Below are positions 2,803-38,444 of a stretch of DNA of 64,000 nt, piece by piece. The stretch comes from Martelella radicis (GTDB lineage Bacteria; Pseudomonadota; Alphaproteobacteria; Rhizobiales; Rhizobiaceae). The position numbers were made by a program, and so were the translations under genes. Positions within the stretch are counted from its first letter, which is position 1. The number at the start of each line of letters is the position of its first letter. The notes below the pieces were generated by a model. It was given only the letters and a program-made list of their open reading frames with translations, did no database searches and had not been told where the DNA came from. The stretch lies in NCBI RefSeq assembly GCF_014196625.1, contig NZ_JACIDZ010000001.1, forward strand, positions 496,001-560,000, given 5' to 3'.

Positions 2803-3822
2803 ATGACCACTGACCTGCCGCTAGCTCTTTCCCAGGGAGACCCCGCCGGCATCGGGCCGGAGATCGCGCTCAAGGCCTGGTCACGCCGTCGCGAGGCTGG
2901 CCTTCCTCCCTTTGTCTATCTCGGCGACCCCCGCATATTAAAGGCGCGCGCCGCCATGCTCGGCCTGGAAGTGCCGGTCGCGGTTTCCGCGCCGGAGGCC
3001 GCTGTCGATGCATTCGGTGACGCGCTTCCGGTTTTCGCCATCGATGCGGCCACGCCCGTTGCGCCCGGAAAACCCGATACGGCCACCGCAACCGGTACGA
3101 TCGCGGCGATCGAAACCGGCGTGAAACTCACCATGCGCGGCAAGACGGCTGCACTCGTCACCAACCCGATCGCGAAATCGGTGCTTTACAGTTCCGGCTT
3201 CCGGTTTCCCGGACATACGGAATTCCTGGCCGAACTCGCCCGTCGAGAAACCGGAACCGAGTATCGCCCGGTGATGATGCTGGCCTGCCCGGCCCTGCGC
3301 GTGGTTCCGGTTACCATTCACATCCCGCTGGCCAGCGTTCCAGGTGAACTCGATCAGGCGCTGATCATCGAGACGATCCGGGTCACGGCGCGCGACCTGT
3401 CGCAGCGCTTCGGCATCAAGGCGCCCCGGCTTGCCGTGGCGGGCCTCAATCCGCATGCGGGCGAACAAGGTACGATCGGCCGCGAGGACGAGGAGACGGT
3501 TCGGCCGGCTCTCGATCTCTTGCGCGCCGAAGGCATTGACGTTGCCGGCCCCCTGCCCGCCGACACCATGTTCCATGCGAGCGCCCGCGCGCGCTACGAT
3601 GCGGCGATCTGCATGTATCACGACCAGGCGCTTATTCCGGTGAAGACACTCGGCTTTGAGGAAGGCGTCAATGTGACGCTCGGCCTGCCTTTCGTCAGGA
3701 CCTCGCCCGACCACGGCACGGCTTTCGACATCGCCGAACGCGGCGTTGCGGATCCGACAAGCCTTGAAGAAGCGTTGAAACTTGCGGCACGGCTAGCCGA
3801 CGGACCCGGGGGCCTGGCATGA
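2803..3822 (+). CDS. pdxA: 4-hydroxythreonine-4-phosphate dehydrogenase PdxA
   Basis: A 339-residue enzyme that oxidises 4-phosphohydroxy-L-threonine with NAD(P)+, supplying the substrate that PdxJ condenses with deoxyxylulose phosphate in pyridoxal phosphate synthesis. The N-terminal [15 protein letters not shown] and the three metal-binding histidine motifs ([34 protein letters not shown]) are all present and the length is normal. It follows the surA-like gene by 9 bases and overlaps rsmA by 4 bases (ATGA), so translation is probably coupled. A pdxJ gene is also in this window, near 62.5 kb. Confidence 0.97.
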
Positions 3823-12700: not shown

Positions 12701-12811
12701 CGGCAAAAGCCGGCGGCATATTGTTTCCGCGCGGCCGCGCCCCATATGCGGTCGCTGGGACGCAATTTTCGCCGGTTTATCAGCCGGCTTGGCAGGGACA
12801 GGGACCGGAAC

Positions 12812-13741
12812 TTGGACTATCTTTATATCGCACTCGGTCTCCTCGGACTTTATTTCGGCGCGGAATGGCTGGTCTCCGGCGCGGTGGCCACGGCCCGGCG
12901 GATCGGCATCTCGCCGCTCATCGCCTCGCTCGTCATCGTCGGCTTCGGCACATCGCTGCCGGAACTGCTGGTCTCGGTGCGCGCCGCGCTTACCGGCGTG
13001 CCCGGCATCGCGCTCGGCAATGTCGTCGGCTCCAACATCGCCAATATCCTGCTGATCGTCGGCATCTCCGCGATCATCTTCCCGATTGCCGGCTGGGACC
13101 GCTCGGTCCGGCGCGACGCGGCGACGATGGTGGCCTCGGCCGTCATCCTGCTCTTCCTTGTGCAGTATGAAGTAATCGACCGCATTGCCGGCGTCGTGCT
13201 GCTGGCGATCCTCGCCTTTTATCTTCTGCGCACATATATGTGGGCGCGCAGGACCGGCGCCAGGCTGAATGACGATGTCGAAGCCGATGTCGACGCCATG
13301 CCGGTGTGGAAAATGGCGCTGCTGATCATCGCCGGGCTCGTCATCCTTCTGTTCGGCGCGGAGTTCCTCATACGCGGCGCGACCGAGCTTGCCGCCCATT
13401 TCGGCGTGTCCGACGCGGTTGTCGGCCTCACCGTGGTTGCCATCGGCACCAGCCTGCCGGAACTGGCGACCGCCGTCGTCGCCGCCACGCAGCGCCACTC
13501 CGACGTCACCATCGGCAATGTCACCGGTTCCTGCATCTTCAACACGCTCTGCATCCTCGGCGCCACCGCGGCCATCGCGCCGCTTCCGGTTTCCGCCGGC
13601 TTCGCCACGCTTGACGTGCCGGTGATGCTGGCGGCAAGCGTGTTTTTCGCGGGGATGCTGTTCTTCGCCCCGAAGTTCCATCGGGCGACGGGTATCGCGA
13701 TGCTGGTGGTCTATGCCGGCTATATCGCCTACCTCGTTTGA
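12812..13741 (+). CDS. Calcium/sodium:cation antiporter, CaCA superfamily (YrbG-like)
   Basis: An inner-membrane exchanger with about ten membrane helices and the two inverted alpha repeats of the family: GFGTSLPELLVSVRAA with GNVVGSNIANILLIVG, and AIGTSLPELATAVVAA with GNVTGSCIFNTLCILG. I favour the TTG start at 12812 because the family normally begins right before the first helix (DYLYIALGLLGLYFGAEWLV) and GGGACAGGGACCGG lies just upstream. An ATG at 12746 would add 22 basic residues. The last 368 bases recur at 17445-17812 as a partial, mosaic copy. It probably exports Ca2+ or a similar cation in exchange for Na+ or H+. Confidence 0.88.
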   Translation: MDYLYIALGLLGLYFGAEWLVSGAVATARRIGISPLIASLVIVGFGTSLPELLVSVRAALTGVPGIALGNVVGSNIANILLIVGISAIIFPIAGWDRSVRRDAATMVASAVILLFLVQYEVIDRIAGVVLLAILAFYLLRTYMWARRTGARLNDDVEADVDAMPVWKMALLIIAGLVILLFGAEFLIRGATELAAHFGVSDAVVGLTVVAIGTSLPELATAVVAATQRHSDVTIGNVTGSCIFNTLCILGATAAIAPLPVSAGFATLDVPVMLAASVFFAGMLFFAPKFHRATGIAMLVVYAGYIAYLV

Positions 13742-13987
13742 CAAAGGCTTCAGCGGCCTTGGATTTCAGCCCCTGATTCGCTCACGTGCTCGCATGTCGT
13801 GCAGGCGGCAGTATGTTCGCGCGTTGGCCTGCGTGTGTTAACCCGGCTTTGCTTAAGAGGCGCCAGGTTCGGCACCCAATTTACGCCCTTCGGTTGACTC
13901 CCGCTTACTCACATGTTGGGACAGAAACAGGATGGATGTCGCGGGTCGCTTCCGCCTGCGACGGGCAAAACCGGGGGCTGCTCGATC

Positions 13988-15502
13988 GTGCAAATCAACA
14001 AGACCGTCATCATTTCACTGCTTCTCTGTCTGCCGATCGGCGCATGGGGGGTGCTTGCGCCTGAGCAGATGGCGGCAAGCGTTCTTGGTTTCACCAGCTA
14101 TTTCATGATCGGCGCCAGCTGGTGGTGGCTTGGTCTTTGTTCGAGTTTCGTGATCCTCGCTGCGTTTCTGGCGCTTGGCCCCTATGGCAACATCCGGCTG
14201 GGCAAGGATGACGAAAAGCCGGAATTCTCCTATTCGTCCTGGATTGCGATGCTGTTTGCCGGTGGCATGGGCGCCGGCCTGCTGTTCTGGGGCGTTGCCG
14301 AACCGGTAACGCATTTCGAGAACCCTCCGGTCGGTGTCGGCGGTTCGGCGGAGGCCGCCCGGCAGGCTCTGGTGATCACCAACCTGCACTGGGGGCTTCA
14401 TGCCTGGTCGATCTATGGCGTCTGTGCGCTCGTGATCGCCTATTTCACCTTCCGCCTCGACAAGCCTCCGCTGATCTCGACGCCGCTGCGTGGCCTCTTC
14501 ACCGGCCGTTCCGCCGACGTCGCAGCCACGACGGCCGATGTCCTCGGCGTCGTCGCCGTGGTCTTCGGCCTTGCCGGCTCGCTTGCCATGGGCGCGCTTC
14601 AGGTCCGCTCGGGCCTGACGGCGATGTTCAATGTGCCGGAAGTCAACACGACCTCGCTACTGATCCTCGCCGTCCTTTTCGCCATGTACATGATCTCGAC
14701 GCTGACCGGCGTCGAAAAGGGCATGAAGCTGCTTTCCGACATCAACATGGCGCTTGGCCTTGCGCTGATGGCGTTCATCCTGATCTTCGGCCCGACCGCC
14801 TTCATCATGGAAACCTTCGTCACCACGATCGGCGCCTATGTCTCGCAATTCGTGAGCATGTCCTTCCGCCTGTTCCCCTTCGAGGGCGTCACGGAATGGT
14901 CGGCAAACTGGACGCTGACCTATCTGATCTGGTGGCTGGCATGGGGGCCGTTTGTCGGCGTCTTCATCGCCCGCATCTCGCGCGGCCGCACGATCCGCGA
15001 ATTCTGCATGGGCGTCATCCTGATCCCGACGGCGTTTTCGCTGTTCTGGTTCGCCGTCTTCGGCGGCGCCGGCATCTATGTCGAGATGTACGGTCCGGGC
15101 GGCCTTGCCTCCGTCATCACCCAGGATGTCGCGGCAGCGCTTTTCACCTTCCTCGATTACTTCCCCTTCGCGACGGTCTTGAGTATCGGCGCACTGGTTC
15201 TGATCGTCATCTTCCTCGTCACCTCGGCCGACAGCGGCACATTTGTGCTGTCGATGATGACGACGAATGGCAATCTGAACCCGCCGTCCGTCTCGAAGAT
15301 CGTCTGGGGCTCGATCGTCGCCATCATCACCGCCGCCACGCTTCTGGCGGGCTCAGTGGATGTGGCGCGGGCCATGTCGACGCTTGGCGCGATCCCCTTT
15401 TCCGCGATCCTGATGCTGCAGATCGTGAGTTTCCTGAGGCGGCTCAGAAGCGATCCCTCGCGAACCAAACCTGTTGAAGACACGACCGGTGAGGTGGCAT
15501 GA
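13988..15502 (+). CDS. BCCT-family (betaine/carnitine/choline) transporter
   Basis: About 504 residues and twelve predicted membrane helices. The family signatures are clear: SSWIAMLFAGGMGAGLLFWGVAEP near the first third, and a WW-LAWGPFVGVFIARISRGRTIREF stretch in the second half. BCCT carriers take up quaternary ammonium compounds, usually with Na+. I place the start at GTG 13988 (VQINKTVIISLLLCLP); ATG 13913 would add a hydrophilic 25-residue lead. The stop overlaps the start of the next gene by 4 bases (ATGA), so the two products are translationally coupled. No osmosensing cytoplasmic tail of the BetP kind is present. Confidence 0.9.
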   Translation: MQINKTVIISLLLCLPIGAWGVLAPEQMAASVLGFTSYFMIGASWWWLGLCSSFVILAAFLALGPYGNIRLGKDDEKPEFSYSSWIAMLFAGGMGAGLLFWGVAEPVTHFENPPVGVGGSAEAARQALVITNLHWGLHAWSIYGVCALVIAYFTFRLDKPPLISTPLRGLFTGRSADVAATTADVLGVVAVVFGLAGSLAMGALQVRSGLTAMFNVPEVNTTSLLILAVLFAMYMISTLTGVEKGMKLLSDINMALGLALMAFILIFGPTAFIMETFVTTIGAYVSQFVSMSFRLFPFEGVTEWSANWTLTYLIWWLAWGPFVGVFIARISRGRTIREFCMGVILIPTAFSLFWFAVFGGAGIYVEMYGPGGLASVITQDVAAALFTFLDYFPFATVLSIGALVLIVIFLVTSADSGTFVLSMMTTNGNLNPPSVSKIVWGSIVAIITAATLLAGSVDVARAMSTLGAIPFSAILMLQIVSFLRRLRSDPSRTKPVEDTTGEVA

Positions 15503-17346
15503 TGAAAAAGCTTTTTGCCATTCTGACCGTGCTTGTTCTGACAAGCTGCTCTTCTGAGCCCGTCCGCATCGGTTCGAAGGATCTCGCGGAAAGCCGGATC
15601 CTTTCCGAAATGTTCGCTCTTCTGCTCGAAGAGGACGGAGTGAAGGTCAAGCGCGTTTCGGCGCTCGGCTCAACCGGCGTCGTCTTCCAGGCGCTGATCG
15701 ACGACGACATCGACCTCTATCCGGAATATACCGGGACGGCGCTGGCCTTCATGGGGTCGCAGCGCATCGACAATGCCGACGATGCCTACGCCTTCGTCAC
15801 CGAAGGTCTCGCACGCAACAATCTCGTCATGCTCGAAAGGCTTGGCTTTGAGACGGACTATGCCGTGCTGACGCGCCCTGCCGTTGCCGCCGCCAATGGT
15901 CTCGAAACCATCTCGGACCTTGCCGGCGCCGACCACCGTCTGACCCTCGGCGTCATGCAGTCCTTCGCCGAGCGCCCGCGTGATGGCCTGGAGCCCTTCC
16001 TGGATCGCTTCGGCCTCACCTTCGAGGACGTCGAGGTCTTCCCCGAAAACCAGCGCAACGATCTCTACGATGCTCTGGTCGAACGGCAGGTCGATATCGT
16101 CGTCGGGCTGACGACCGATCCCGAGATCGTCGATTACGATCTCGTGGCGCTTGATGATTCGACCGGCTTCTTCCCGGTCTACGAGGCCGCCCCCCTGACC
16201 TCCGAGGCGGCACTTGCCCGCTCACCCGAGATTGCCGAGGTGATGGCCAAGCTCGCCGGCAGGATCGATGACGAGACGATGCAGGCGCTCAATGCCGCTG
16301 TCCGCCTCGATGGCCGCCCTGTTGCCCGCGTGGCCCGCCGCGCACTCTATGACATGGGCCTTGTCGAAAAGCCGCCGCGTGAGCTGACGCCTGTGCTCGG
16401 CATCGCCATTGCGCCCGAAACCATGGGCACGGATCCCGCCATCGACACCCTGCGGGCCGTGCGCCAGGCCATGCGCGGCCGCGATGTGAACCTCGTTGCC
16501 ACAGACACGCCGATCGATGCCATGGCGGCAGACGAAGCCCGCCTGGCGCTTGCCCCTGCCGTTTCCGGTTTCACCGTGCTTGATGGCAAGATCGTGCGCA
16601 ATGACGCGCTCGAAGCGGTTGCAGCCATCGGCTCGACGTTCCTGCACGCGCTGTCGCTGTCGGATGCGCCGGTCTCCCCCGCTGATGCCGCCGTCATCGC
16701 CGCCGGACCGGAAGGGTCAGCCTCCCACATGCTCGCCACCGTCATGGCCATGAGCGGCGAAGGCGAAACCACGGTTCTGGCGCTGGACGATGAAAGCGTG
16801 GAGACGGCAGCCGCCGCGCTCGAAAACGGCGATGCCGAGGTGGCGCTCGTCTTCGCGACGCCGGGCCGCCAGGATCTCGCCGATCTCCTCGGCGAAAGCC
16901 AGGCCATAACGCTTGTCGATGCGGATGCCTGGTGGCAAGGCTCGGCGCAGCTTTATCTGCCGGTCATGCGCGAGGCCCAGATCAGCGCCGAGACCTATGA
17001 CGGCATAAACCGGCCGGTCGCAACGCTTTCTACACAACTGATCCTGTTCGGACCGGCAGCACCGGACCGCTTCGTCGTCGGCCAGCAGGGCCCGGGCGCC
17101 TTCTTCGACGAACAGCGTCCGCTGCAGGACCGTAATGTCGAGGCGATCAACCGCAATCTCGGCCTCCACGCCGCCGTCGACCCTTATCTGAGAAAGGCCG
17201 CAGCGCTCACCCCACAGGTCAACATCCGCGACGACCGGATCAACCCCTATCCCGGCCGCGCCATCCTGATGATCGTGATTCTTTCCTATCTCGTCTGGGT
17301 GATCTGGCTGTTTATCCGGCCGGAACGACCGGGGGAGCGGGATTAG
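15499..17346 (+). CDS. Two-domain binding lipoprotein: OpuBC/OsmF-like plus TAXI-like domain with C-terminal membrane anchor
   Basis: 615 residues. Residues 1-17 form a lipoprotein signal with lipobox LTSC (Cys17). Residues 20-290 resemble the quaternary-amine-binding domain of OpuBC/OsmF proteins (GSKDLAESRILSEM, ALGSTGVVFQAL, DLYPEYTGTAL). Residues 300-570 resemble a TAXI-type TRAP solute-binding domain (AAGPEGSASHMLATVMAM). Residues 590-609 form a single membrane helix followed by a basic tail. It overlaps the BCCT gene by 4 bases. BCCT carriers are not known to need a binding protein, so a substrate-delivery or sensing partnership is inference. No ABC ATPase/permease or TRAP membrane gene is nearby. 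Confidence 0.75.
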   Translation: MMKKLFAILTVLVLTSCSSEPVRIGSKDLAESRILSEMFALLLEEDGVKVKRVSALGSTGVVFQALIDDDIDLYPEYTGTALAFMGSQRIDNADDAYAFVTEGLARNNLVMLERLGFETDYAVLTRPAVAAANGLETISDLAGADHRLTLGVMQSFAERPRDGLEPFLDRFGLTFEDVEVFPENQRNDLYDALVERQVDIVVGLTTDPEIVDYDLVALDDSTGFFPVYEAAPLTSEAALARSPEIAEVMAKLAGRIDDETMQALNAAVRLDGRPVARVARRALYDMGLVEKPPRELTPVLGIAIAPETMGTDPAIDTLRAVRQAMRGRDVNLVATDTPIDAMAADEARLALAPAVSGFTVLDGKIVRNDALEAVAAIGSTFLHALSLSDAPVSPADAAVIAAGPEGSASHMLATVMAMSGEGETTVLALDDESVETAAAALENGDAEVALVFATPGRQDLADLLGESQAITLVDADAWWQGSAQLYLPVMREAQISAETYDGINRPVATLSTQLILFGPAAPDRFVVGQQGPGAFFDEQRPLQDRNVEAINRNLGLHAAVDPYLRKAAALTPQVNIRDDRINPYPGRAILMIVILSYLVWVIWLFIRPERPGERD

Positions 17347-17444: not shown

Positions 17445-17812
17445 GCGGCGCGACCGAGCTTGCCGCCCATTTCGGCGTGTCCGACGCGGTTGTCGGCCTC
17501 ACCGTGGTTGCCATTGGCACCAGCCTGCCGGAACTGGCGACCGCCGTCGTCGCCGCCACGCAGCGCCACTCCGACGTCACCATCGGCAATGTCACCGGCT
17601 CCTGCATCTTCAACACGCTCTGGATCCTCAGCGCCACCGCGGCCATCGCGCCGCTGCCCGTCTCAGACGGCTTCGCCACGCTTGATGTGCCGGTGATGCT
17701 GGCAGCCAGCATGTTTTTCGCGGGGATGCTGTTTTTCGCGCCGAAGTTTCAACGGGCGACGGGCGTGGTGATGGTGGTGATTTATGCGGGGTATATCTGG
17801 GCGCTGGTGTAG
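17445..17812 (+). pseudogene. 3' fragment duplicate of the CaCA antiporter gene
   Basis: This block aligns without gaps to the last 368 bases of the antiporter gene (offset exactly 4071), with about 36 mismatches by my count. Mismatches are very unevenly spread: two or three in the first half and most of the rest in the last 170 bases, including the terminal codons. It encodes only the second alpha repeat and last helices, lacks the first two thirds of the gene, and has no convincing start or ribosome site, so it should be non-functional. It and the intact gene flank the BCCT/lipoprotein pair as direct repeats. Confidence 0.85.

Positions 17813-37664: not shown

Positions 37665-38444
<780 letters not shown>

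Follow-up and report, generated by a model that had tools for sequence, protein, structure and literature searches.

BCCT carriers, for which structures have been solved, are regarded as single-component transporters. Solute-binding proteins of the OpuBC, ProX and EgtUC type belong to ABC importers, and those with the TAXI fold work with an ion-driven TRAP carrier (VcGluP/VcGluQM; TtGluBP, 1us4). According to PMC11574862, TAXI proteins are commonly anchored as lipoproteins, and some TRAP transporter genes have a UspA gene beside them. Binding domains are also held at the membrane, some of them in tandem, in GlnPQ (tandem), OpuA and OpuF, the latter two with fused binding domains as described in PMC6207618. 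We analysed a 64,000-nucleotide stretch of the Martelella radicis genome (hereafter the window; contig NZ_JACIDZ010000001.1, positions 496,001 to 560,000 of the forward strand), in which a BCCT carrier gene overlaps by the four letters ATGA, as already seen in a preliminary description of this DNA, the gene of a lipoprotein with one OpuBC/ProX-type and one TAXI-fold domain (domains 1 and 2; Table 1). With somewhat better than even confidence, we read the pair as a binding-protein-assisted uptake module for betaine-type quaternary amines in which the BCCT protein is the membrane part. Aimed literature searches, with bioRxiv and most subscription papers outside their scope, showed, among the papers listed, no description of a BCCT carrier paired with a binding protein.

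The locus resembles each of these systems and departs from each. Its carrier shares the fold, aromatic box and Na2 site of BetP, TmaT and BetT, but has a near-fixed binding-protein partner and differs at the positions of BetP T246 (V/I) and W371 (L/F). Domain 1 is folded like OpuBC, ProX and EgtUC and keeps almost all of their cage residues, but in none of 39 related loci does it adjoin an OpuB-type permease, and it is fused to a domain of the TAXI fold and to a C-terminal helix. As in TAXI-type TRAP systems, a lipid-anchored binding protein and a TAXI-fold domain accompany an ion-driven carrier and a UspA gene can come next (PMC11574862), whereas here the carrier is a BCCT rather than DctQM, the betaine site lies in the OpuBC-type domain and the critical glutamine is missing. 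GlnPQ, OpuA and OpuF are ABC importers; here, by contrast, the helix that anchors the binding protein is not part of the carrier. The module thus falls outside both ABC and TRAP transporters and, judged from its sequence, most probably acts in the manner of secondary transporters that depend on a binding protein.

The evidence that carries this reading is the recurrence of the pair. Nine sequences were used to search genome contigs, and the best 80 of 479 loci were kept, namely 39 two-domain relatives (loci L044-L082, of which L074 and L081 are cut by contig ends) and 41 relatives with domain 1 only. Of the 39 two-domain loci, 38 have a BCCT gene as their immediate upstream neighbour in the same orientation, the 39th (L081) starting inside the lipoprotein gene, whereas none of the 41 single-domain loci has one within the DNA fetched (less than 16 kb for 13 of them); a BCCT gene is likewise beside the lipoprotein gene in all nine full-length whole-genome loci, from strains that partly overlap the 39. 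With two L086 proteins as queries, an OpuB-type permease was found in 41/41 single-domain loci versus 0/39 two-domain loci, and DctM is adjacent to the module in none of the 39, a single DctM query matching four of them elsewhere. The two-domain homologues of the lipoprotein are thus not regular companions of an OpuB-type permease or of DctM, and the co-occurrence of BCCT gene and fusion, which the preliminary description had proposed to look for, is borne out; its idea of a binding-protein-assisted or substrate-sensing BCCT system gains support at the genomic level from this recurrent pairing. In the reverse direction, the lipoprotein gene directly follows the carrier gene in 20 of 20 BCCT loci with an identity of at least 48%, and is found in the flanks of none of 30 at 43% or less; these 30, out of 33 unlinked matches of which the other three had no locus, comprise 29 class-search matches and the second BCCT of the M. 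radicis genome itself (L125-L153 and L001), L147 and L152 being cut 204 and 98 nucleotides after the carrier match and L138 shortly before the carrier. The spacing of the two genes is tight, from -4 to +35 nucleotides in 34 of 35 loci with both ends called; the ATGA overlap is not general, a gap of -4 recurring in L044-L047, L052 and L056, and in the 35th locus (L054) the BCCT stop was judged misread at the contig start. A second, distant BCCT is found near the module in L057 (2356-3795), L059 (4889-6241) and L081 (2925-3749).

In one rival reading, the lipoprotein would be the orphan binding protein of a distant ABC permease and would stand next to the BCCT gene because both are betaine genes. 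There is precedent in GbsU, reported as a betaine-binding lipoprotein without local ABC genes (PMC6207618). ABC permeases are plentiful elsewhere in the M. radicis genome, an OsmF-like binding protein with adjoining permeases lies at C2:289-293 kb of that genome, and a ProW-like permease is possible among the distant permease matches. Against this stand the absence of an OpuB-type permease from all 39 loci and a pairing kept across distant groups. Moreover, query P0001 detected no other binding protein at E 1e-5 in 19 of 26 module-bearing genomes (six of the 19 being less than 90% complete or more than 5% contaminated), and permease matches there reach at most 34% identity among the matches listed, compared with 38-55% where an OsmF/OpuB-like system exists; a distant ABC partner is therefore disfavoured, and we give it very little credence. 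Locally, as the preliminary description had stated, ABC and TRAP membrane genes are missing: no ABC permease (PF00528) was found among the 150 of 196 candidates scored in the window and no DctM-type membrane protein was found in the window, which does hold an ABC-ATPase-like stretch at 37770-38432.

The lipoprotein combines two binding-protein folds between two predicted membrane anchors. AlphaFold2 models of the whole protein and of domain 2 with the helix are confident, with mean predicted local distance difference test scores of 89 and 88. In NCBIfam, OsmF is matched below its cut-off (113 bits, E 1e-32), as is TRAP_TAXI (16.5 bits, E 0.003). A lipobox is recognised by pattern in 35 of the 39 two-domain relatives and by eye in L070 (SVGC) and L082 (LCGC); none was seen in the stretch read of L066, and L081 is cut by the contig end. 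Our protein alignment has 34 rows, namely 33 loci and the window, with L047, L066, L070, L074, L081 and L082 left out; because rows with a recognised lipobox were picked, the invariance of C17 in it is partly by construction. All 34 rows show a hydrophobic C-terminal helix, mostly with an RPE-type tail, and lipobox and helix together therefore predict a protein with a membrane anchor at each end. The lipoprotein signal, the OpuBC/OsmF-like domain and the C-terminal helix of the preliminary description are accordingly all present. Frame changes occur near the junction of domains 1 and 2 in L047 (8885-9119) and L082 (8888-8951), where error and a real split or frameshift look alike; separate genes for the two domains were considered in L082 and rejected, the change being put down to a frameshift or an error in the sequence. 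At L032/L041 (G007:C1:1709392-1709613) lies a remnant of the lipoprotein C-terminus, 74 codons long and 82% identical, in a Martelella genome that also holds a full copy on another replicon.

Domain 1 appears equipped to bind a betaine. It matches Pfam OpuAC at residues 21-282 (E 6e-49), its top Foldseek matches are of the OpuBC/ProX/EgtU type, and its solved relatives include ProX, Lmo1422, EgtUC and OpuBC. Five cage residues (K27, Y77, T80, R159 and Y228) are present in 34/34 aligned rows; position 121 is Y in 31 and F in 3, and position 204 is Y in 19, F in 13 and L in 2. By alignment to Archaeoglobus fulgidus ProX, these correspond to K13, Y63, T66, R149, Y214, Y111 (for Y121) and Y190 (for 204), which we take to be the ligand residues of that protein. 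The combination of lysine and arginine points to a carboxylated betaine, which would be favoured over choline. Domain 1 is also the better conserved half, with a mean column majority of 0.65 versus 0.53 in domain 2. The double tether and the intact cage would equally suit a protein that merely concentrates betaine at the membrane for local scavenging, docking to no carrier; a tethered buffer, however, needs no particular carrier, whereas this protein is paired near-exclusively with one BCCT clade, and we hold such scavenging to be very improbable.

Domain 2 was recognised by fold. As a single sequence it gave only a sub-threshold Pfam match to NMT1_3 (residues 370-517; 24.7 bits, cut-off 27), but a profile built from 34 sequences picks out 1us4, a TAXI protein, with E 7.5e-14. 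Foldseek scores for its model are modest (TM-score 0.51-0.64 by target, identity 11-18%), and ranks 2 and 4 are VCA0144 (9ibp), which we take to be a TAXI protein. The proteins at ranks 1, 3, 5, 6 and 7 are identified as TAXI binding proteins by their titles or by PMC11574862. Both profile and structure comparison thus give the second half a binding-domain fold, and within it H383 is kept in 33 of 34 rows and a G-x-x-G-S loop in 31, 31 and 28 of 34.

The window carrier is a BCCT protein, as first described, with a Pfam PF02028 match of 547.5 bits (E 2.9e-164; cut-off 27) and a TIGR00842 score of 445 bits, above the cut-off of 407.55. We compared 50 lipoprotein-linked BCCTs with 32 others, the linked label standing for at least 48% identity to P0002 and agreeing with observed adjacency. 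All six aromatic-box residues of transmembrane helices (TM) 4 and 8 are kept in 50/50 linked carriers, as is each residue of the Na2 site (BetP M150, T467 and S468), the Na2 and Na1' sites being those defined in PMC6400524. The BetP-type Na1' site is not kept: the T246 position is V in 48 and I in 2 linked carriers and T in 29 of the 32 others, and the T250 position is L or V in 50/50. Since T250 is Thr in 0/82 BCCTs, the others included, only the T246 position separates the linked carriers from the rest, and its V or I suggests an altered ion coupling. The position of BetP W371, a residue name taken from an alignment count, is L or F in 50/50 linked carriers.

In a quick tree of the 82 BCCTs, with long branches, the 50 linked carriers fall in one clade (SH-aLRT support 99) that has one solo member, L125. 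Distances among BCCTs and among lipoproteins run in parallel (r 0.92 over 24 loci, identical and short rows dropped), which fits joint inheritance and is not a sign of contact. Taken with the altered Na1' position, these data raise the possibility that a BCCT clade dependent on a double-anchored OpuBC-TAXI fusion, usually with UspA and with a different ion coupling, forms a further class of binding-protein-dependent secondary transporters beside TRAP and TTT, a proposal we make tentatively and rate a little short of even. If true, such a branch, whose binding protein looks obligate, would allow binding-protein dependence to be dissected in a well-understood carrier, and the module would link the ABC, TRAP and BCCT worlds.

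Under our preferred reading, the two genes would together specify a single uptake system for glycine betaine or a closely related compound. On the outer side of the inner membrane, the lipoprotein would be held by its N-terminal lipid and C-terminal helix and would capture the solute in the aromatic cage of domain 1; the TAXI-fold domain and the helix would dock it against the BCCT carrier, which would import the handed-over solute together with Na+ at the Na2 site. Such a module would operate as TRAP transporters do, its membrane part being a BCCT carrier.

Several observations weigh against solute delivery. Other BCCTs function unaided, using their own aromatic box, and since that box is intact in the linked carrier too, delivery may be dispensable. 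L125, inside the BCCT clade at 43% identity, has no lipoprotein gene in its 1.5-kb flanks, so the carrier fold can exist alone and the pairing is near-exclusive, not absolute; it is the only unlinked BCCT with Gly at 197, has Ile at 191, and adjoins urease accessory-like genes, named from their translations. The domain 1 of the window has L204 where 32 of 34 rows have Y or F. An ATPase query gave generic matches at 28-38% identity in the flanks of seven of the 39 two-domain loci, away from the module. Finally, VcGluP requires Y45 and Q93 for glutamate (PMC11574862), and the equivalent of Q93, position 353, is Q in 0/34 rows, so that domain 2 is without the known TAXI ligand residue; in the Y45 region (residues 298-316), which the profile leaves unaligned, Tyr is not among the common residues of the 34 rows. 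The TAXI-like second binding domain first described therefore stands as a fold and not in its known ligand residue, and domain 2, missing the critical glutamine, may be an adaptor and not a second binding site, or may be a domain with a different ligand.

That the domain 2 pocket residue is not kept would also suit regulation, the main rival to delivery, in which the lipoprotein reports solute or membrane state through its helix and switches the BCCT carrier, UspA acting as a cytoplasmic regulator in the relatives. The C-terminal helix with its recurring short RPE-type tail is consistent with this, as is the UspA partner in 30 of 39 loci. BetP carries a regulatory extension. The window carrier ends shortly after the BCCT domain (504 aa; domain end 488), and this short tail, a further point for regulation, implies that a BetP-type extension may be missing. 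The near-invariant domain 1 cage and the better conservation of domain 1 are, however, explained at least equally by delivery, and UspA is missing from the window and from eight of the 38 relatives where the position is visible; we regard sensing or gating as rather unlikely, and delivery remains the reading that we favour.

The UspA-family gene lies directly downstream of the lipoprotein gene (L049-L064, L066-L069, L071-L073, L075-L081), and all four downstream proteins scanned match Pfam Usp. The loci without it are L044-L048, L065, L070, L082 and L074, the last cut off within the gene by the end of its contig. The preliminary description had the gene pair right, the third gene of the relatives lying outside what its reader could see. 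UspA-like matches at 23-30% identity stand beside three of the 30 other BCCTs (L001, L139 and L148), and in L001, the locus of the second BCCT of M. radicis, which is unlinked, the UspA-like open reading frame (3173-3583; 23% identity) lies upstream of the carrier gene. A conserved minus-strand neighbour in six loci overlies the UspA gene in 6/6 and was rejected as an antisense shadow. The wider neighbourhood was tried and dropped as a guide to substrate: among 93 of 126 neighbouring open reading frames (crude calling) searched with Pfam, no family occurs in more than 4/93. MttB-family methyltransferase genes lie within 8 kb of the module in at least three of the 39 loci by a non-exhaustive search (L070, 4908-6404, directly upstream on the same strand; L072, 10526-12046; L078, 1-1527), a weak hint at methylated amines as substrates.

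The distribution of the module can be relied on for Alphaproteobacteria and a complete Uabimicrobium genome (Planctomycetota), with three gammaproteobacterial metagenome-assembled genomes as a supporting clade. The BCCTs of rows named as Oceanobacillus, Halioglobus and Marinicella branch among alphaproteobacterial ones, and an Anaerolineae row stands alone; from these tree positions, the labels may be binning or naming errors. Among 385 genomes spread evenly over the class, two match at E 1e-50, M. radicis included, and the module is thus uncommon there; in the order of the other matching genome, 15 of 61 genomes carry the BCCT type. A mobilizable Martelella plasmid has annotated genes for both carrier and lipoprotein, and a Paracoccus plasmid has annotated lipoprotein and UspA genes with BCCT-like DNA upstream without a listed gene. 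The three annotated plasmid records with the full protein call it "glycine betaine ABC transporter substrate-binding protein", an annotation that our reading, if true, would correct.

Table 1. Coordinates in the window of the BCCT and lipoprotein genes and of their features.
Feature	Position	Strand	Basis or remark
BCCT carrier gene, 504 aa	13988..15502	+	GTG start; stop 15500-15502
TM4 aromatic box W135, W140, Y143 (BetP W189, W194, Y197)	14390..14416	+	Alignment to BetP
V191 codon (BetP Na1' residue T246)	14558..14560	+	
TM8 aromatic box W315, W316, W319	14930..14944	+	
Na2 site T412-S413 (BetP T467, S468)	15221..15226	+	
ATGA overlap of BCCT and lipoprotein genes	15499..15502	+	Sequence
Two-domain lipoprotein gene, 615 aa	15499..17346	+	ATG 15499, stop 17344-17346; 39 two-domain relatives
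Lipoprotein signal peptide and predicted lipidated C17	15499..15549	+	C17 invariant in 9/9
Domain 1, OpuBC/ProX-type quaternary-amine-binding, residues 21-290	15559..16368	+	Pfam, Foldseek
Domain 2, TAXI-fold, residues 297-535	16387..17103	+	Profile match, Foldseek
C-terminal transmembrane helix, residues 585-606	17251..17316	+	AlphaFold2 helix; short basic RPE tail after

The GTG start of the carrier matches Martelella homologues, an in-frame ATG upstream at 13913 being possible, and the lipoprotein gene has a possible alternative ATG at 15502. A promoter and terminator scan found no promoter-like site and one terminator-like site, inside the BCCT gene, a count below the mean of shuffled sequences. 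Upstream of the module lies a Na+/Ca2+ exchanger gene (12746-13741), a 353-nucleotide piece of which (13374-13726) is repeated at 17445-17797 with 92.6% identity, so that a whole exchanger copy and a partial one flank the module; in the stretch examined of the relative G002 (L033), only the whole copy is present.

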